52,158 nucleotides of DNA, taken from positions 1 through 52,158 of the forward strand of contig JAKSOV010000004.1 of the NCBI GenBank assembly GCA_024405415.1, read 5' to 3'. The notes beneath the pieces were generated by a model. The model saw nothing but the letters and a program-made list of their open reading frames with translations, was not told where the DNA came from and did not search any database. The number at the start of each line of letters is the position of its first letter. The first letter of the stretch is position 1. Source of the stretch: Akkermansia sp. GTDB lineage: Bacteria > Verrucomicrobiota > Verrucomicrobiia > Verrucomicrobiales > Akkermansiaceae. The translations under genes were made by a program, and so were the position numbers. Below, in pieces: positions 1-52,158 of the stretch.

Positions 1-53
1 AAAATAGTACATAGTACCTAGTACATAGTAAATCTACAAATCCCCATTTGTCG
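1..53. repeat. heptad array and cap palindrome at the left window edge
   Basis: The first 30 bases are tandem 7-mers of the TAGTACC/TAGTACA type (TACTATG/TACTAGG on the other strand), followed at about 34-53 by the cap palindrome ACAAATCCCCATTTGT. This matches, in inverted order, the array at the right window edge and the left arm of the copy at 14236. It looks like one arm of the composite repeat family with the rest lying outside the window. It sits just after the 3' end of nadE. Bases 54-66 show nothing else. Confidence 0.8.
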
Positions 54-4638: not shown

Positions 4639-4813
4639 GTACAACGTACAATGTACAAAGTACAAATCATTGAATAGAGTGCGGCTACGCCGCAAGGTTC
4701 AAGAAAACGGTCTGGCGCGTGCGTCAGACCGTTTTTGCGTCCCGCGGCGTCAGCCGCCTAAATTTCTGATTTGTACATTGTACTTTGTACATCTCGACAA
4801 ATCCTCATTTGTC
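4639..4813. repeat. composite nested-palindromic repeat, copy B
   Basis: Fills the gap between the convergent ends of lpxD and oppC. Left arm: four heptads GTACAAC, GTACAAT, GTACAAA, GTACAAA (4639-4666). Then a GC module with mini-hairpin GCGGCTACGCCGC (4681-4693), the terminator hairpin (4704-4735), the inverted GC module GCGGCGTCAGCCGC (4744-4757), inverted heptads TTTGTAC, ATTGTAC, TTTGTAC (4770-4790), and the cap palindrome GACAAATCCTCATTTGTC (4796-4813). This is the most complete copy. No reading frame in it looks coding. Confidence 0.9.
4704..4735. terminator. bidirectional terminator hairpin in copy B
   Basis: Arms AAAACGGTCTGGCGC and GCGTCAGACCGTTTT, a 15-bp stem with one G-T wobble. 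The A-run on one side and T-run on the other let it act on both strands, suiting the convergent lpxD and oppC transcripts. Confidence 0.85.
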
Positions 4814-9400: not shown

Positions 9401-9405
9401 GGGGA

Positions 9406-9433
9406 ATTACAAATTACAATTTACAAATTACAA
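9406..9433 (-). promoter_or_regulatory. promoter-like hexamers inside a heptad array before nagZ
   Basis: On the reverse strand the array gives TTGTAA (9428-9433), 16 bp, TGTAAT (9406-9411), 5 nt before the nagZ ATG. The same hexamers at the same spacing precede the ABC gene at 51222. Promoter function is inferred. Confidence 0.4.
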
Positions 9434-9470
9434 ATTGAAATTTCGGCTCGCTACGCTCGCGGGATAGGAG

Positions 9471-9501
9471 AAAACGGTCTGACATGCTGTCAGACCGTTT
9501 T
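9471..9501. terminator. terminator hairpin in copy C
   Basis: Arms AAAACGGTCTGACA and TGTCAGACCGTTTT, a perfect 14-bp stem with a 3-nt loop, A-run and T-run flanks. It would end pyrE transcription before nagZ. Confidence 0.85.
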
Positions 9502-9523
9502 CGGAAAGAAGCGAGCGATAGAT

Positions 9524-14225: not shown

Positions 14226-14235
14226 GCGGTTGTTC

Positions 14236-14462
14236 GACAAATGAGGATTTGTAGATTTACTATGTACTAGGTACTATGTACTATTTTTGAATAGAGTGCG
14301 GCTGTCGCCGCAAGGATGGAAAACCCGTTCTGACGCTTGCGTCAGAACGGGTTCGTTATCTCGCGGCGTCCCTGTCACGGCGTAGCCGTAGGCGAAGACG
14401 GAAGCCGCCGAACTTTACAAATAGTACCTAGTAAATAGTACCTAGTAAATACCCATTTGTCG
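14236..14462. repeat. composite repeat, copy D (TACTATG class)
   Basis: Occupies most of the 305-bp gap between the convergent TPR and MenC-like genes; nothing else but the TPR terminator is in that gap. Order: cap GACAAATGAGGATTTGT (14236-14252), heptads TACTATG, TACTAGG, TACTATG, TACTATT (14258-14285), GC module with GCGGCTGTCGCCGC (about 14299), terminator hairpin (14322-14353), an enlarged right GC module with extra small hairpins (about 14362-14412), inverted heptads TAGTACC, TAGTAAA, TAGTACC, TAGTAAA (14422-14449), and a half cap (CATTTGTCG). Confidence 0.9.
14322..14353. terminator. terminator hairpin in copy D
   Basis: Arms AACCCGTTCTGACGC and GCGTCAGAACGGGTT, a perfect 15-bp stem with a 2-nt loop. 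Compared with copies B, E and F the outer stem sequence differs on both arms while pairing is kept. Confidence 0.85.
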
Positions 14463-14465
14463 CAC

Positions 14466-17004: not shown

Positions 17005-17092
17005 CGAAAAACGGTCTGACGCCATGCGTCAGACCGTTTTCGTTAACGTTGCGGCGTCAGCCGCACTCTATTCCATGATTTGTACTTTGTAC
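17005..17092. repeat. composite repeat, copy E (half element)
   Basis: Between convergent thi4 and tpiA. Contains the terminator hairpin (17008-17040), the right GC module (GCGGCGTCAGCCGC, 17051-17064, then ACTCTATTCC) and two inverted heptads TTTGTAC TTTGTAC (17079-17092), ending 4 bp before the tpiA stop. The left GC module and left heptads are absent; 16954-17004 shows no clear remnant. Confidence 0.85.
17008..17040. terminator. bidirectional terminator hairpin in copy E
   Basis: Arms AAAACGGTCTGACGC and GCGTCAGACCGTTTT around CAT; perfect 15-bp stem, serving thi4 and tpiA. Confidence 0.88.
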
Positions 17093-17096
17093 ATCA

Positions 17097-42624: not shown

Positions 42625-42628
42625 AAAT

Positions 42629-42789
42629 GTACAAAGTACGATGTACAATGTACAAATCAAAAAAAATAGGCGGCTGACGCCGAAGAATTGAAAAACGGTC
42701 TGACGCAAGCGTCAGACCGTTTTCTTTAACCTTGCGGCGTCAGCCGCGCTCTATTCAACGATTTGTACTTTGTACATCTCATTTGTCTT
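42629..42789. repeat. composite repeat, copy F (GTACAAW class)
   Basis: Between convergent def and the first GH95 gene. Left heptads GTACAAA, GTACGAT, GTACAAT, GTACAAA (42629-42656), GC module GGCGGCTGACGCCG (42669-42682), terminator hairpin (42692-42723), right GC module GCGGCGTCAGCCGC then GCTCTATTC (42734-42756), inverted heptads TTTGTAC, TTTGTAC (42762-42775), and a half cap (CATTTGTC) that runs into the GH95 stop. Confidence 0.9.
42692..42723. terminator. bidirectional terminator hairpin in copy F
   Basis: Arms AAAACGGTCTGACGC and GCGTCAGACCGTTTT around AA; perfect 15-bp stem. Confidence 0.9.
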
Positions 42790-45331
42790 TCACCTCCGGC
42801 ATCACCTCGTGGGTTTCGCCGTTGACCTTCACGCGGACGGGCTGAGGATTCGGGGTCGTGGTGGTCAGACGGTAAGCGGTCACGAGGCCGTTGCTCCACT
42901 CCATATCGATGGTGATGTTGCCGCGGGCGCGGATGCCGCGGATGTGGCCGTCCTTCCAGGCTTCGGGGAGGGCGGGCAGCAACTCAATCTGTCCGGCGTG
43001 GGATTGCACGAGCATCTCGCTCATCCCGCCCGTCATGCCGAAGGTGCCGTCCATCTGCATGGGCGGATGGTTGCCGAAGAGATTGTCCAGCACATTGTAG
43101 AGAATGTAGCTCTGCACCATCTCATAGGCGCGCTCCGTCTGCCCGAAGCGGGCCCAAAGGGCCGTGCGCCACGGCCATGTCCAGCTGCGGCGGTTGTCGC
43201 CGCTGAGGCCGCGAAGCTCGAGGCTCTTCATGGCAGCGGCCGCCAGTTCGGGCGTGCGCTCACGCGTAATAGTGCTGCCGGGGAACACGCCAATGAGGTG
43301 CGAGGTATGGCGGTGGCCCGCCACCATGTCGGGGCGATCCACAATCCACTCCTGCAAATAGCCGCCCGCAGCCACGCGGTTGGGGGCCAGTCGGTTGCGA
43401 ATAGAGAGCATCTTCGCCTCTTGATCAGCATCGACCCCAAGCACACGCGCCGCCTTGACCGTGTTGTCAAAGAGCTCACGAATCAGCTGTTGGTCGTGCA
43501 TGCAGCCGTCCTCCACGGGGCCCCATTCGTGCGACCAACCGAGGGGGGAAACGAGCGTGCCCGCAGGAAGTTCTTTCAGCTCGGGGTGTTCCTCGGGGTC
43601 CAGCTCCTCAAACCCGTTCGGGGCTTTGCCCTTGCGGGCGGGGGCATACTTCGGTTTACCGTCCTGATCAAGGCGCTCGGGAATCTCCGTCACCAAGCCC
43701 TCACCATTCGGGCCCAGCTCCTTGAGCTGCTTCTCCCAGAACTGAGAAATCTCCTTCAGCAGGGGGTAGCCCACCTCGCGCAAGTACTGTTCATCGTGCG
43801 TGAACTGATAGTGGTCCCACACATGCAGCGCGTACCATGCGTTGACGGGCGGGTTCCACTTCACCCAACCGCCGCCGCCCCAGGGATTCTGGGAGATGCG
43901 TGTCGTCCAGCCGGGGGTATCCGCGCCGAACTCCTGCTGCGTCATGGCATGCAGCGGCTCGCTCATGGCCTTCATGTAGTCGATAAAGGTGCGGTGGCAC
44001 TCGGAGAGGTTGCCGACCTCCGCGCCCCAGTAACACATCTGAATGTTGATGTTGTTATGGTAGTCACAAGCCCAGGGGGCGTGTACCTTGTCATTCCAGA
44101 TACCCTGCAGGGTCATGGGCAGGTTGCCGGGGCGGGAGCCGGCGATGAGCATGTAGCGACCATACTGGTAGATAGTCGCCTCCAGCTCGGGGTCTTCCTG
44201 CGTACCGGCATACTTGGCGATGCGCACATCCGTGGGCAGAGACTGCGTATCCGCATCGCTCTTGCCCAACTCAATATCCATGCGCTCAAAGAGCGCCTTG
44301 TGGTCCGCCACATGATCGGCACGGACAGCGGCAACATCCTTGCCGGCCAATGCGGCGAGAACAGCCTCGTTACGCACGGCGGGGTCCTCCCCCTTCCAAT
44401 CGGCGCGGTAGTCCTCCTTGTAATCCGTCGCCAGCGTTATATAGACCGCGACGCTGTCCGCATTCTGCACCTGCACATAAGGAGCGCCGACGGCATCGAA
44501 GTTCGGGCGCATCATGTCGCCCTTGCCCACATAGTGTACGTCGAGCTCACAATCTCCGCCCTTCATCACAGCGCCCCCACCTTGCACCTTCACCTGCATA
44601 CGGCCCTCAAACAGCTCGCCGTTAGCCAGCTCGCCGCGCATGATAATCGTATCATCCCCCGACACACGGTAGGAAACTTTGTGACACGGGGTAAGCCCCA
44701 GTTTCACGGAAAGAGCACCGGGCTTATCCGCCGTCGCGGTGTACACCAGCACATCGTCGGGCTTGCTCACAAAGGCCTCGCGCACATGGCGCACGCCGCC
44801 GTTGGTGAATTCCGTGCGAGCGACGGCCGTATGCAAATCCAGCGAGCGACTGTAATCCTGCGTTTCACCGGGCAAATCAAACTCTGCCATCAGGTTGCCG
44901 AAGGGCTGGTAGCTGCCGAACTCATCCTTGCCGGAGGTGGGACCGTAGCTGTAGCCCGAACCGTTGCCGGGGGCGTTGAACCCGCCCGTCCAGAGCGAAA
45001 TTTCATTGAGATTAATACGCTCGCGGCGGTCTCCGCCGAAGACGGTACCGCCCACGCGCCCATTGCCGATGGGGAGAGATTGAGCCTCCCACGGGTCGGA
45101 GCAACGGCCCTTCTTCTCCGCCTGAACAGCATGCTGGGGCATCACGAAATCTATGCCCTCACCGCCCACGTTGCCGCTGTTGGTCAGGCCTGCGGCCCAC
45201 GGAACGGAAGCGGCATTCACCGTAGCCGGTTGACGATACCAGAGATAATCAGAAGAAGGATGGGCAGCCTGAGCCACCGAGGCCAGACCGCACAACGCGA
45301 CGCAAAGAGGAAAAGAGTATCGGTGCATCAT
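42779..45331 (-). CDS. alpha-L-fucosidase, GH95 (first of a tandem pair)
   Basis: Inverting fucosidase, usually acting on alpha-1,2-fucosyl linkages of mucin or milk glycans. 850 residues, signal peptide MMHRYSFPLCVALCGLASVAQA. The N-terminal beta domain includes WEAQSLPIGNGRVGGTVFGG and RINLNEISLWTGG, hallmarks of GH95. The (alpha/alpha)6 barrel has YHNNINIQMCYWGAEVGNLSE (the Asn-Ile-Asn pair corresponds to catalytic Asn residues), NPWGGGGWVKWNPPVNAWYALH and GWSHEWGPVEDGCMHDQQL (Glu region). It ends WTWPWRTALWARFGQTERAYEM. Very similar to the gene at 45778-48279: a tandem duplication interrupted by a small opposite-strand lipoprotein gene. Promoter at 45379-45407. Confidence 0.94.
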   Translation of the reverse strand: MMHRYSFPLCVALCGLASVAQAAHPSSDYLWYRQPATVNAASVPWAAGLTNSGNVGGEGIDFVMPQHAVQAEKKGRCSDPWEAQSLPIGNGRVGGTVFGGDRRERINLNEISLWTGGFNAPGNGSGYSYGPTSGKDEFGSYQPFGNLMAEFDLPGETQDYSRSLDLHTAVARTEFTNGGVRHVREAFVSKPDDVLVYTATADKPGALSVKLGLTPCHKVSYRVSGDDTIIMRGELANGELFEGRMQVKVQGGGAVMKGGDCELDVHYVGKGDMMRPNFDAVGAPYVQVQNADSVAVYITLATDYKEDYRADWKGEDPAVRNEAVLAALAGKDVAAVRADHVADHKALFERMDIELGKSDADTQSLPTDVRIAKYAGTQEDPELEATIYQYGRYMLIAGSRPGNLPMTLQGIWNDKVHAPWACDYHNNINIQMCYWGAEVGNLSECHRTFIDYMKAMSEPLHAMTQQEFGADTPGWTTRISQNPWGGGGWVKWNPPVNAWYALHVWDHYQFTHDEQYLREVGYPLLKEISQFWEKQLKELGPNGEGLVTEIPERLDQDGKPKYAPARKGKAPNGFEELDPEEHPELKELPAGTLVSPLGWSHEWGPVEDGCMHDQQLIRELFDNTVKAARVLGVDADQEAKMLSIRNRLAPNRVAAGGYLQEWIVDRPDMVAGHRHTSHLIGVFPGSTITRERTPELAAAAMKSLELRGLSGDNRRSWTWPWRTALWARFGQTERAYEMVQSYILYNVLDNLFGNHPPMQMDGTFGMTGGMSEMLVQSHAGQIELLPALPEAWKDGHIRGIRARGNITIDMEWSNGLVTAYRLTTTTPNPQPVRVKVNGETHEVMPEVKDK

Positions 45332-45777: not shown

Positions 45778-48279
45778 TTATTCCGCAGCAGGCGCGATAT
45801 ACTGAGGCTTGAGCTCGCGCTCCTCACCATTCAACACCACGGTGACGGGGGCATGGTCAGGCGTCGCGGTGTAAAGCGCATAATCGACCAGCTTGCCGTC
45901 CTTCCACGCCATGTTGATGGTGATATCTCCGCGTGCGCGGATGCCGGCGATATAACCATCCTTCCATGCGGTGGGCAACGCGGGCAAGAGCTCGATGCGC
46001 CCGTCGTGGGACTGTACGAACATCTCGCTCATACCGCCCGTCATGCCGTACACACCGTCCATCTGCATGGGCGGATGGTTACCGAAAAGGTTATCCAACA
46101 CATTGTAGCGGATGTAGCCCTGCACCATCTCATAAGCGCGCTCCGTCTGCCCGAAACGGGCCCAAAGCGCCGTGCGCCACGGCCATGTCCAGCTGCGGCG
46201 ATTGTCGCCGCTCATGCCGCGCAACTCCAAGCTTTTCATAGCGGCGGCAGCCAGCTCCGGCGTTTTGTGGCGGGAGATCGAGCTGCCGGGGAACACACCG
46301 ATGAGGTGCGAAGTATGGCGGTGGCCGCTCACCAAGTTCGGGCGATCCACCACCCACTCCTGCAAATAACCGCCGTCGGCCACGCGGTTGCCGACCAATC
46401 GGTCGCGCATGGAGATAAGCTTCTTGGCCCACGCCTCATCCGTGCCGAGAATGCGGGCAGCCTTGGCCGTGTTGTCAAACAGCTCCCAGATGAGCTGCTG
46501 GTCGTGCATGCAGGCGTCCTCCACAGGCCCCTGCTCGTGGGACCAGCCGTTCGGGGAGACAAGCGAACCGGCCTTGATACGCTTAAGCTCGGGGTACTGC
46601 GCGGCAGTCAGCGGGGTCTTGCCGTTGTCCGTCATCAGGCCCCTACCCTCAGCCCCCACCTCCTTGAGGTGCTTTTCCCAAAACTGAGCAATACTCTTGA
46701 GCAGAGGATAGCCCGTCCGGCGGAGATAATTCTTATCCTGCGTAAACAGGTAGTGATCCCACACATGCAGCGCATACCAGGCATTGACGGGCGGGTTCCA
46801 CTTCACCCAACCGCCGCCGCCCCAGGGATTCTGTGAGATGCGCGTTGTCCAGCCGGGGGTATCCGCGCCGAACTCCTTTTGCGTCATGACGTGCAGCGGC
46901 TCCTCCATCGCCTTCATGAAGTCGATGAAATTGAGGTGGCACTCGGAGAGATTGCCCACCTCGGGCCCCCAGTAGCACATCTGGAGGTTGATGTTGTTGT
47001 GGTAGTCGCTGCCCCACGCGGCATGCACCTTGTCATTCCAAATACCCTGCAAGGTGAGCGGCAGACTGCCGGGGCGGGAGCCGGCGATGAGCATGTAGCG
47101 GCCATACTGGTAAATCAGGGCCTCCAGCTCGGGGTCGGTCTGCTGCTCGCGGTACTTCGCCAAGCGCTCATCCGTCGGCAGAGCAGCGGTGGCGGGGTCC
47201 GTCTTACCCAGCGAAAGAGAAAGGCGGTTGAAGAGAGACTTATGGTCCGCAATATGCGCCTTGCGGATAGCGGAGAGTTTTTTGCCTCTCACGGCCTTGA
47301 GCACCTTGGCATTGTGCTTGGCGGGGTCCCCGCCCTTCCAATCCGCGCGGTAATCCTCCTTATAATCCGTAGCCATGGAGATATAGACGGTCACACTGTC
47401 CGCCTCTTTCACCTGAATGTAAGGAATCCCCTTAGCCTCCAGAACGGGGCGCACACCCGCCCCCTTGCCCTCGTAGCTGACATCGACACGGTGATTACCG
47501 CCGACGAGGGCCGCTTTGCCGCCCTTAGTCTTCACCATCAGTCGCGCCTCAAACTTCTCGCCGTTAGCCAGCGTGCCGCTCATCACCACGGTATCCTTGC
47601 CCGCGGGCGTGAACTCCGTGCTGTGGAAAGGGGTAAGCCCCAATTTCACCGTCAGCGCACCGGGCTTATCCGCCTTGGCCGTGTATACCACCACGTTGTC
47701 CGGGTAGCTCACAAACGCCTCGCGGGAGTGGCGCACGCCGCCGTTAACAAACTGCATGCGGGCGATACCGTCCACCAAATTCAGCGAGCGGGAATAATCC
47801 TCCGTCTCGCCGGGGAGCTCGAACTCCGCCCAGAAATTAGCGAAGGGCTGGTAGCTGCCGAAACCGTCCTTACCCGTCTTGGGACCGTAGCTGTAGCCCG
47901 ACCCATTGCCGCCGAGATTGGGTCCGCCCGTCCAAAGCGACACCTCGTTGAGATTGATGCGCTCGCGGCGGTCACCGCCGAAAACGGTACCGCCCATGCG
48001 CCCGTTGCCGATGGGCAGGGTCTGCGATTCCCATGGGTCGTCCAACCTGTTACTGAGCGCATCGTTAGCGCAAAAAGCCTCGCTGATTTCCGTCAGATCG
48101 CGACCATCGCCGCCGAGGTTATGGGCGGGCGTTTTCCCGGCAGCCCACGGCACGGGAGCCTCATTCACACGGGCGGGCAAACGATACCACAGCATATTTT
48201 GCGTCGCCTGTTCCTGCGCCGAAGCTGACGAAAGAGCGGCCGAAGCGACGAGAAGGAGTGTCGTGCTGAGCTTTATCAT
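45778..48279 (-). CDS. alpha-L-fucosidase, GH95 (second of a tandem pair)
   Basis: 833 residues, signal peptide MIKLSTTLLLVASAALSSASA. Same architecture as the gene at 42779: WESQTLPIGNGRMGGTVFGG and RINLNEVSLWTGG in the N-terminal part, YHNNINLQMCYWGPEVGNLSE, NPWGGGGWVKWNPPVNAWYALH and GWSHEQGPVEDACMHDQQL in the barrel. Long stretches are identical to its neighbour, so they are recent tandem paralogs. Differences cluster in surface loops and linkers, which may tune linkage preference. Promoter TTGTCA, 17 bp, TAAGGT (48316-48344) overlaps the 3' end of the EamA gene upstream. Confidence 0.94.
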   Translation of the reverse strand: MIKLSTTLLLVASAALSSASAQEQATQNMLWYRLPARVNEAPVPWAAGKTPAHNLGGDGRDLTEISEAFCANDALSNRLDDPWESQTLPIGNGRMGGTVFGGDRRERINLNEVSLWTGGPNLGGNGSGYSYGPKTGKDGFGSYQPFANFWAEFELPGETEDYSRSLNLVDGIARMQFVNGGVRHSREAFVSYPDNVVVYTAKADKPGALTVKLGLTPFHSTEFTPAGKDTVVMSGTLANGEKFEARLMVKTKGGKAALVGGNHRVDVSYEGKGAGVRPVLEAKGIPYIQVKEADSVTVYISMATDYKEDYRADWKGGDPAKHNAKVLKAVRGKKLSAIRKAHIADHKSLFNRLSLSLGKTDPATAALPTDERLAKYREQQTDPELEALIYQYGRYMLIAGSRPGSLPLTLQGIWNDKVHAAWGSDYHNNINLQMCYWGPEVGNLSECHLNFIDFMKAMEEPLHVMTQKEFGADTPGWTTRISQNPWGGGGWVKWNPPVNAWYALHVWDHYLFTQDKNYLRRTGYPLLKSIAQFWEKHLKEVGAEGRGLMTDNGKTPLTAAQYPELKRIKAGSLVSPNGWSHEQGPVEDACMHDQQLIWELFDNTAKAARILGTDEAWAKKLISMRDRLVGNRVADGGYLQEWVVDRPNLVSGHRHTSHLIGVFPGSSISRHKTPELAAAAMKSLELRGMSGDNRRSWTWPWRTALWARFGQTERAYEMVQGYIRYNVLDNLFGNHPPMQMDGVYGMTGGMSEMFVQSHDGRIELLPALPTAWKDGYIAGIRARGDITINMAWKDGKLVDYALYTATPDHAPVTVVLNGEERELKPQYIAPAAE

Positions 48280-49702: not shown

Positions 49703-51043
49703 ATGAAGCACCAAGATGATTTGTTTGCCTTTCTGAGCATTCCCGGCGTGTCCGCGGAGGCAGAGCACGCGGCGGATTGCGAACGCGTGGCGGATTTCCT
49801 TGTGGAGAAGCTGACGACGCTCGGTTTCTCCGCCACCAAGCACATGACGAAGATTCACCCCATCGTGGTGGCGCACAGCCCCAAGGTGGAAGGCGCGCCC
49901 ACCGTGTTGGTGTACGGCCACTACGATGTGATGCCCGTGGACCCCATTGCGGAGTGGAAGAGCGACCCCTTCAAGCCCGAAATCCGCGACGGCCGCATCT
50001 ACGCCCGCGGCGCGTCCGATGACAAGGGCGAAATCATGTGCCATGTGCTCGGCGCGCAGGAAATCATCGAGGAGGACGGCAAGCTGCCCCTCAACGTGAT
50101 TTACCTCTTTGAAGGCGAGGAGGAGCGCGGCTCCTACAGCCTGCATGAGTTTGTGCAGGACCCGGAGGTGCAGAAAGACCTCGCCTGCGATGTCATCGTG
50201 GTGAGCGACACGGGCATGGCCGCGCCCGACATCCCCTCCCTTTCCTACGGTCTGAAGGGGCTCTGCTGCTTCGAGCTGAAGGTGGAAGGACCCTCCATGG
50301 ACCTCCACAGCGGCATTTTCGGCGGCGCAGTGGCGAACCCCATCACCACGCTCTGCGAGATGATTGCCTCCACCCACGATGCGGACAACCACGTCACCGT
50401 CGAGGGCTTCTACGACGGCGTGCAGGAAATCGCCGACTGGGAGCGCGAGAGCTGGGCGCGCGTGCCCGGTGCCTCCGATACCGAACTGGCAGCACTCACG
50501 GGTGTCCCCGCGCTGCGCACGGAAACGGGTTACACGGGCACGGAATGCGCCTACGCCCGCCCCACGCTGGAGCTCAACGGCATCTCCGGCGGCTACGAGG
50601 GCGAGGGTTCCAAGACCGTCATCCCCACCCACGCCATTGCCAAGATGAGCTGCCGCCTTGTGCCCGGCCAGGACCCCGTGGACATCATGAAGAAGGTGGA
50701 GGCCCACTTCCGCAAGGTCTGCCCGCCGAGCGTCCGCATGACCTACACCATGCAGCACGCGGGCGATGCCTACATCGTTGACCCCCACTCCCCCTTCGGC
50801 AAAGCCGCCCAGCAGGCTTTGGAGATGACCTTCGGCAACCCGCCCGTGCTCGTGCGCGAAGGCGGTTCCATCCCCATCATCGCCGAAATCTCCAAGAAGC
50901 TCAAGAAGGACGCTCTCTTCCTCGGCCTCGACCTGCCCGACGCCCGCATCCACTCCCCCAACGAGAACATGCGCGTGGAAATCTTCGAAAAGGGCATCGA
51001 GATGGCGAAGAATCTCTTACGCTTAATGGCGCAGGTTAAGTAA
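49703..51043 (+). CDS. M20-family metallodipeptidase
   Basis: Cytoplasmic zinc-dependent dipeptidase of the M20 family (CNDP/PepV-like). 446 residues. Metal and catalytic motifs: VLVYGHYDVMPVD (His ligand, catalytic Asp), YARGASDDKGE (bridging Asp), FEGEEERGS (catalytic Glu and ligand), VVSDTG (Asp ligand) and LGLDLPDARIHSPNENM near the end (last His ligand). The lid and dimerisation domain lies about 190-330 (MDLHSGIFGGAVANP). It may degrade peptides brought in by an Opp-type system such as the one at 4817-8329, but is not linked to it. Confidence 0.92.
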   Translation: MKHQDDLFAFLSIPGVSAEAEHAADCERVADFLVEKLTTLGFSATKHMTKIHPIVVAHSPKVEGAPTVLVYGHYDVMPVDPIAEWKSDPFKPEIRDGRIYARGASDDKGEIMCHVLGAQEIIEEDGKLPLNVIYLFEGEEERGSYSLHEFVQDPEVQKDLACDVIVVSDTGMAAPDIPSLSYGLKGLCCFELKVEGPSMDLHSGIFGGAVANPITTLCEMIASTHDADNHVTVEGFYDGVQEIADWERESWARVPGASDTELAALTGVPALRTETGYTGTECAYARPTLELNGISGGYEGEGSKTVIPTHAIAKMSCRLVPGQDPVDIMKKVEAHFRKVCPPSVRMTYTMQHAGDAYIVDPHSPFGKAAQQALEMTFGNPPVLVREGGSIPIIAEISKKLKKDALFLGLDLPDARIHSPNENMRVEIFEKGIEMAKNLLRLMAQVK

Positions 51044-51050
51044 TCTGAAA

Positions 51051-51212
51051 ATTACAAATTACAAATTACAAATTACAATTTGGGAATTCGCGCGCTTTCA
51101 GCGCGGAGTAATACAGCAAGGTCTGACGGGCCGTCAGACCTTGCTTCCCAAATCCGCGAGCGACAGCGAGCCTCACTTCAAAAATTTGTAATTTGTAAAT
51201 TGTAATTTGTAA
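51051..51212. repeat. composite repeat, copy G (ATTACAA class)
   Basis: Between two forward genes. Left heptads ATTACAA four times (51051-51078), GC module (CGCGCGCTTTCAGCGCGG, about 51089-51106), terminator hairpin (51115-51145), right GC module (CCGCGAGCGACAGCGAGCC, about 51154-51172), inverted heptads TTTGTAA, TTTGTAA, ATTGTAA, TTTGTAA (51185-51212). Both arms belong to the same heptad class. The right array is nearly identical to the array before nagZ. Confidence 0.9.
51115..51145. terminator. terminator-like hairpin in copy G
   Basis: Arms AGCAAGGTCTGACGG and CCGTCAGACCTTGCT, a 15-bp pairing with a minimal central loop. The core GGTCTGAC/GTCAGACC is shared with the other copies; A and T runs are shorter, so termination may be weaker. 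Confidence 0.7.
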
Positions 51213-51213
51213 T
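51186..51213 (+). promoter_or_regulatory. promoter-like hexamers inside the right heptad array of copy G
   Basis: TTGTAA (51186-51191), 16 bp, TGTAAT (51208-51213), 8 nt before the ABC gene ATG at 51222. Same hexamers and spacing as before nagZ. Inferred promoter. Confidence 0.4.
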
Positions 51214-51221
51214 TCCCATAT

Positions 51222-52105: not shown

Positions 52106-52158
52106 GACAAATGGGGATTTGTCGGGATTTACTAGGTACTATGTACTAGGTACTATTT
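52106..52158. repeat. cap palindrome and heptad array at the right window edge
   Basis: GACAAATGGGGATTTGTC (52106-52123), then TACTAGG, TACTATG, TACTAGG, TACTATT heptads to the last base. This is the left part of a composite repeat of the class seen at 14236; the rest is cut off. Bases 52074-52105 show nothing. Confidence 0.8.

Follow-up and report, generated by a model that had tools for sequence, protein, structure and literature searches.

The BIMEs of enterobacteria are mosaics of exchangeable palindromic modules that lie in the gaps between genes, often at 3' ends, and inverted neisserial uptake sequences form repeated terminator hairpins at gene ends. Cyanobacterial STRRs are short intergenic heptanucleotide arrays. 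The TAACTGA arrays of Beggiatoaceae are short intergenic arrays of 7-bp units located immediately upstream of start codons (PMC4679880), and REP/REPIN-RAYT systems comprise short extragenic palindromes that occur as inverted pairs, at high copy and free of target-site duplications (TSDs) (PMC3116915, PMC3733652). Here we describe a dispersed family of nested palindromes in Akkermansia. We favor, with moderate confidence, the reading that these elements are REPIN-like mosaics, non-autonomous and related to the RAYT elements found in Akkermansia, some of them probably serving as bidirectional terminators.

The window analyzed is a whole contig (C57, 52,158 nucleotides) of an uncultured gut Akkermansia MAG, and the genome (G000) is a fragmented assembly of 1.98 Mb in 122 contigs that is 95% complete. 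Judged by the relatives of a window protein, it belongs to Akkermansia and groups with herbivore- and gut-associated species. An earlier note on this DNA had described six gaps sharing one architecture, and this holds in full for the copies at 4639, 14236, 42629 and 51051, all four of which carry the 14–15-bp central hairpin between inverted heptad and GC arms. The other two are halves: the copy at 9406 consists of a left arm and hairpin only, and that at 17005 of a hairpin and a short right arm only. All six gaps are real, but the tally had missed truncated copies at both ends of the window and a lone cap palindrome. The features are as follows.

1–52, minus strand: truncated capped copy at the contig end (heptad array 4–30, cap 35–52)
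2080–2097, no strand: lone cap palindrome GACAAATGAGGATTTGTC, at a divergent junction
4639–4667, plus strand: copy 1, left heptad array, GTACAA type, 11 bp past the lpxD stop codon
4680–4698, plus strand: copy 1, left GC palindrome
4704–4735, no strand: copy 1, terminator-like hairpin AAAACGGTCTGGCGC/GCGTCAGACCGTTTT (covariation of the hairpin class)
4743–4758, minus strand: copy 1, right GC palindrome
4768–4792, minus strand: copy 1, right heptad array
4796–4813, no strand: copy 1, cap palindrome GACAAATCCTCATTTGTC
9405–9436, plus strand: half copy 2, left heptad array, ATTACAA type
9444–9464, plus strand: half copy 2, GC module
9470–9502, no strand: half copy 2, hairpin GAAAACGGTCTGACA/TGTCAGACCGTTTTC; right arm absent before the pyrE stop
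14236–14252, no strand: copy B, left cap
14255–14291, plus strand: copy B, left heptad array, ACTAKGT/TAGTACC type
14294–14315, plus strand: copy B, left GC palindrome
14322–14353, no strand: copy B, hairpin AACCCGTTCTGACGC/GCGTCAGAACGGGTT
14360–14409, minus strand: copy B, right GC palindrome, apex interrupted (uninterrupted in relatives L070, L083, L104)
14370–14402, no strand: copy B, ~33-bp REP-like insert CCCTGTCACGGCGTAGCCGTAGGCGAAGACGGA at the GC apex
14414–14451, minus strand: copy B, right heptad array, then a degenerate cap (to about 14461)
17008–17040, no strand: half copy 4, hairpin
17050–17066, minus strand: half copy 4, GC palindrome
17078–17095, minus strand: half copy 4, short right heptad array, reaching the triosephosphate isomerase stop
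42628–42658, plus strand: copy 5, left heptad array, 4 bp past the peptide deformylase stop
42669–42683, plus strand: copy 5, left GC palindrome
42692–42723, no strand: copy 5, hairpin
42733–42748, minus strand: copy 5, right GC palindrome
42760–42778, minus strand: copy 5, right heptad array, touching the GH95 stop at 42779
51043–51081, plus strand: copy 6, left heptad array, ATTACAA type
51089–51106, plus strand: copy 6, left GC palindrome
51115–51145, no strand: copy 6, hairpin AGCAAGGTCTGACGG/CCGTCAGACCTTGCT
51155–51172, minus strand: copy 6, right GC module
51183–51221, minus strand: copy 6, right heptad array, stopping at the start codon (ATG, 51222) of an ABC transporter gene
52106–52158, plus strand: truncated capped copy at the contig end (cap 52106–52123, heptad array 52130–52155)

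The cap lies to the right of the copy at 4639 and to the left of that at 14236, is degenerate on the right of the latter, and is not present at the other four window copies (9406, 17005, 42629 and 51051). Seven period-7 runs and one period-14 run were detected in the window, with none otherwise at periods 4–13 and none in shuffled sequence. Both window ends are truncated capped copies because the assembly breaks inside the repeat; among the matches listed, many G000 contigs start or stop within the same heptad array, and the repeat itself therefore fragments the Akkermansia assembly. A neighboring pair of GH95-family glycoside hydrolase genes occupies the minus strand at 42779–45331 and 45778–48279. 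An Rfam search of the window gave zero matches, a plasmid search with the 139-bp unit matched nothing, and viral contigs held a few unrelated heptad arrays but not the element itself. The literature searched contains no account of these repeats in Akkermansia and no name for the four-layer combination, which the earlier note had likewise been unable to name.

The composite, dispersed, nested-palindromic family proposed in that note is real, but not as a single fixed unit of four layers; its parts are separable, and the copies make up a mosaic series, any of which may lack the terminator, the cap or even one arm. Lone caps occur at 2080–2097 in the window and at three further G000 loci (L310, L311 and L320), and L312 consists of a cap, two to three heptads and a cap. 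A terminator-free form of 139 bp (L307–L309 and L315–L317) reads cap, heptad, GC palindrome, heptad, cap; the same layout with a TCTGACG hairpin measures about 190–217 bp, and the hairpin form with a ~33-bp REP-like insert in its second GC palindrome 222–236 bp. Inverted cap pairs bound 18 distinct copies, with an end-to-end length of 139–236 bp. Uncapped, more diverged copies use other heptads (GTACAAT, ATTACAA, TTTATAA and TTTGTGA), and half copies are common. Of 68 distinct TCTGACG-type hairpins, 32 are flanked by two arrays, 25 by a single array and 11 by none. The earlier note had held that the composite element would not exist if its modules occurred independently and in no preferred order; the outcome is mixed, in that modules do occur alone but their order is constant in the copies that combine them. 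Both arms carry the same heptad type in 28 of 29 typeable copies, which are partly clonal and in which unit order need not match; arms of mixed heptads also exist (L060, L066 and L069).

Several related arrangements were observed alongside this series. A heptad-free capped class (L296, L297, L299, L301, L319 and L325) consists of a cap, a GC palindrome and a TCTGACGGAACGTCAGA hairpin, and its longer nested hairpins may enclose another repeat. Some element halves (L072, L118 and L241) end in or adjoin different repeats, for example GGTGGATGTTTGAAATAGGG...GGTACCACCCTGCCA in L072 and L118. In other Akkermansia species (G139, G019 and G024), loci L287, L288, L289 and L291 hold terminator-free heptad-GC-heptad units whose arms differ, ATTACGA versus GTACATC.

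The heptad pattern GTACNNNGTACNNNGTA matched G000 1,010 times (512 forward and 498 reverse) against 0 in the control, and the cap palindrome 256 times against a single control match; these counts are based on pattern searches and fetched stretches, and copy number above the listed matches is an estimate. Fetched G000 loci contained 97 period-7 runs versus at most 3 at any other period from 4 to 14, and shuffled sequence contained none. The sampled loci were similarity matches to three window copies, and rarer element classes are therefore under-represented. Across 240 other genomes of the phylum, a sample that leaves aside the closest heptad-rich sisters, G001 and G003, GTAC-heptad matches reached at most 11 per genome with both strands summed. 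Copy B (14232–14465) has more than 10 relatives at unrelated sites with 91–99% identity over ~220 bp, from which it follows that the element disperses, and the similarity ends sharply at the caps. No excess of target-site duplication was found at lengths 2–9 in 18 copies; the cap flanks lean toward GNNC on both sides, with C at +4 in 15 of 18 and G at -4 in 12 of 18. Around the thi4-like gene the neighboring window genes are not conserved, so synteny there yields no empty sites. Taken together, these data show that the family has dispersed at high copy, with sharp ends and without TSD.

Two other accounts of this pattern can be weighed here. Heptad number differs from copy to copy, single arrays exist, and both arms usually share a heptad type while unit order need not match, as might be seen if heptads had arisen independently by slippage, as STRR-like arrays, and flanked terminators by chance, with template switching generating the inverted symmetry. 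We consider this account improbable, since the constant order, the outward arms, the common caps and the long identical copies at unrelated loci require dispersal of the whole unit. Equally doubtful is the idea that these are classical MITEs whose DDE transposase is missing from the assembly: the elements are noncoding and at high copy, and the caps could act as terminal inverted repeats, but the TSD signal is lacking at lengths 2–9 in the 18 copies, no larger cap-bounded element appears among the cap matches listed, and in the search, which covered Y1 families, the only kind of transposase that accompanies such palindromes in Akkermansia is Y1.

At the eight extension positions of 32 distinct hairpin stems, 89% of cells pair, compared with a mean of 52% and a maximum of 58% in 1,000 column shuffles, and T-rich tails follow the hairpin on both strands (mean of 4.6–4.9 T per 8 nt). 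The hairpin thus looks like a bidirectional intrinsic terminator with a stem conserved by covariation, and judged from these sequence features, some copies probably terminate transcription in vivo. A reading of TCTGACG as a DNA uptake sequence was not supported: its singletons show no notable enrichment in the window, with counts of 5 and 6 versus 3.1 and 3.5 expected, elements included. Gene positions came from a simple codon-usage gene caller, and by these approximate calls none of 118 arrays lies within a predicted gene, the outer neighbor being a stop codon for 84 and a start codon for 33. Counted per array, the junctions are convergent in 44 cases, tandem in 43 and divergent in 3. By the same calls, convergent junctions make up 7 of the 42 in the window yet carry four of the six copies, the other two lying at tandem junctions. 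Overall, the arrays do not overlap coding sequence and are concentrated at the 3' ends of genes. In the sister species G001, single heptad arrays adjoin start or stop codons, and several of them are located in prophage gaps, between genes for exonuclease VIII, a DnaC-like loader, a tail protein and a Holliday junction resolvase. In a sister-species prophage (L233, G001:C12:65000–74000) single arrays occupy the gaps between consecutive genes, and one array apparently falls within an open reading frame.

These observations bear on whether the elements might simply be host gene punctuation, that is, ordinary bidirectional terminators with arms selected at gene ends and spread by gene conversion rather than transposition. 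In that case the heptads would be bound by a protein at the borders of genes, or would function within leader or trailer RNA, akin to the proposal for the TAACTGA arrays, which lie just 5' of start codons (PMC4679880). The covarying stems, the T-rich tails on both strands, the 3'-end and convergent bias, the absence of all 118 arrays from genes and the single arrays beside start and stop codons in the sister species, prophage included, are all consistent with such a role. We nonetheless regard it as rather unlikely: a recent burst of 91–99% identical copies in a single lineage and the lone caps look selfish, the 139-bp copies have spread despite having no terminator, and no single RNA-level role fits arms that face outward symmetrically at gene starts and ends. 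The same outward orientation argues against a purely translational role for the heptads, whose function is the weakest part of our interpretation.

A REP-like hairpin of ~33 bp (CCTGTCACGGCGTAGCCGTAGGCGAAGACGG) is found across the genus, mostly at the apex of other palindromes (window 14370–14402; L057–L059, L075, L085; L127–L144; L236). With at least 5 bp of flanking complementarity as the criterion, 14 of the insert's 21 distinct contexts are palindrome apices, compared with 4% for random window sequence and 17% for cross-pairing. The host palindromes include GCGGC/GCCGC, CCCAGGGC/GCCCTGGG, CCCTGCC/GGCAGGG and CCCCGCC/GGCGGGG, and two inserts are located inside heptad arrays (L034/L085 and L236). 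Either the longer forms arose from the 139-bp form through an insertion at the GC apex, or the 139-bp form arose from them when sequence between direct GCGGC repeats was deleted. It is possible, and we suggest it only tentatively, that a Y1 transposase puts new hairpins into single-stranded apex loops, so that elements grow in the manner of a Russian doll, with terminators, REP-like inserts and the transposase gene as successive inner layers and the heptads as the outer, gene-border layer. As a counterpoint to the RAYT reading, apex nesting could also come from central deletion.

The earlier note had raised the possibility of a distant RAYT with matching repeats. None exists in the G000 assembly, where a genome-wide search of the Y1 families (Y1_Tnp/RAYT) gave zero matches in the 95%-complete genome; sister Akkermansia species do contain RAYTs centered in related nested-palindrome elements, some with cap-like ends. 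At RAYT loci of these species, inverted flanking repeats with E ≤ 1e-6 were found in 11 of 13 cases versus 0 of 200 random intervals, and they are nested GC palindromes of 25–185 bp with 80–100% identity. The cap itself, with at most one mismatch, occurs in 12 other Akkermansia genomes. A cap-bounded sequence in G011 is 100% identical over 140 bp to the 3' flank of a G010 RAYT, the match beginning 35 bp beyond the stop codon, and cap-like palindromes lie on one or both sides of RAYT genes in G002, G010, G020 and G280 (on both sides in G280). The G272 RAYT, a 154-aa protein, is 99% identical to that of G010, and G272 also holds a capped GTACAA-heptad element without a terminator. Most RAYT loci have no cap match above chance level, heptads occur at RAYT flanks in only 2 of 18 loci, both in G002, and G001 and G003 have RAYTs and heptads and no caps. 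The presence of a RAYT at the center of similarly bounded elements in sister species points to a mobile element built on hairpins, one that provides terminators for the ends of genes as well.

Under the REPIN-like reading that we prefer, two inverted cap hairpins (the CGACAAATNRGRATTTGTCG class) enclose a stack of palindromes. From the outside inward these are heptad arms, a GC palindrome and, in many copies, an apical hairpin of the bidirectional terminator type, with a REP-like hairpin sometimes added at a GC apex. A Y1 (HUH, RAYT-type) transposase would mobilize the elements in trans by way of single-stranded hairpins and may insert new hairpins into existing loops, and the burst in the G000 lineage would stem from a transposase that has since disappeared or that the assembly lacks. 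Intergenic copies, most of them at 3' ends where the hairpin may stop transcription from both sides, would then be what purifying selection leaves. The result is a natural series from a 20-bp lone palindrome through nested elements of 236 bp to transposase-centered elements in sister species, which makes the origin of extragenic palindromes and repeated terminators testable.

How the family compares with described systems can now be stated. With MITEs it shares small size, noncoding content, high copy and terminal inverted repeats in the form of caps at both ends; it differs in that TSDs are lacking and no DDE transposon was found as a parent, the genome-wide search being of Y1 families. Like STRRs and the TAACTGA arrays, its 7-bp unit arrays are intergenic and near start or stop codons, but the Akkermansia genome has several heptad types, and these form the inverted arms of a palindromic element. 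The recurrent species-specific core TCTGACG...CGTCAGA at Akkermansia gene ends recalls the neisserial uptake sequences. As with BIMEs, the elements are intergenic palindromic mosaics often at 3' ends; they differ in their strictly symmetric, nested order, in having arms of tandem heptads and in the terminator hairpin that occupies the apex. The likeness to REP/REPIN-RAYT systems lies in a high-copy extragenic short palindrome (256 caps, 0 of 118 arrays in genes), in caps paired and inverted about a spacer (18 copies, 139–236 bp) and in Akkermansia Y1 transposase genes located among related palindromes. In contrast to those systems, the GTAG/CGTC tetranucleotide was not found and the cap flanks are GNNC-like, G000 is without a RAYT and cap-like ends surround RAYTs in only some sister-species loci, and the Akkermansia units extend over 139–236 bp with heptad arms and nested hairpins.
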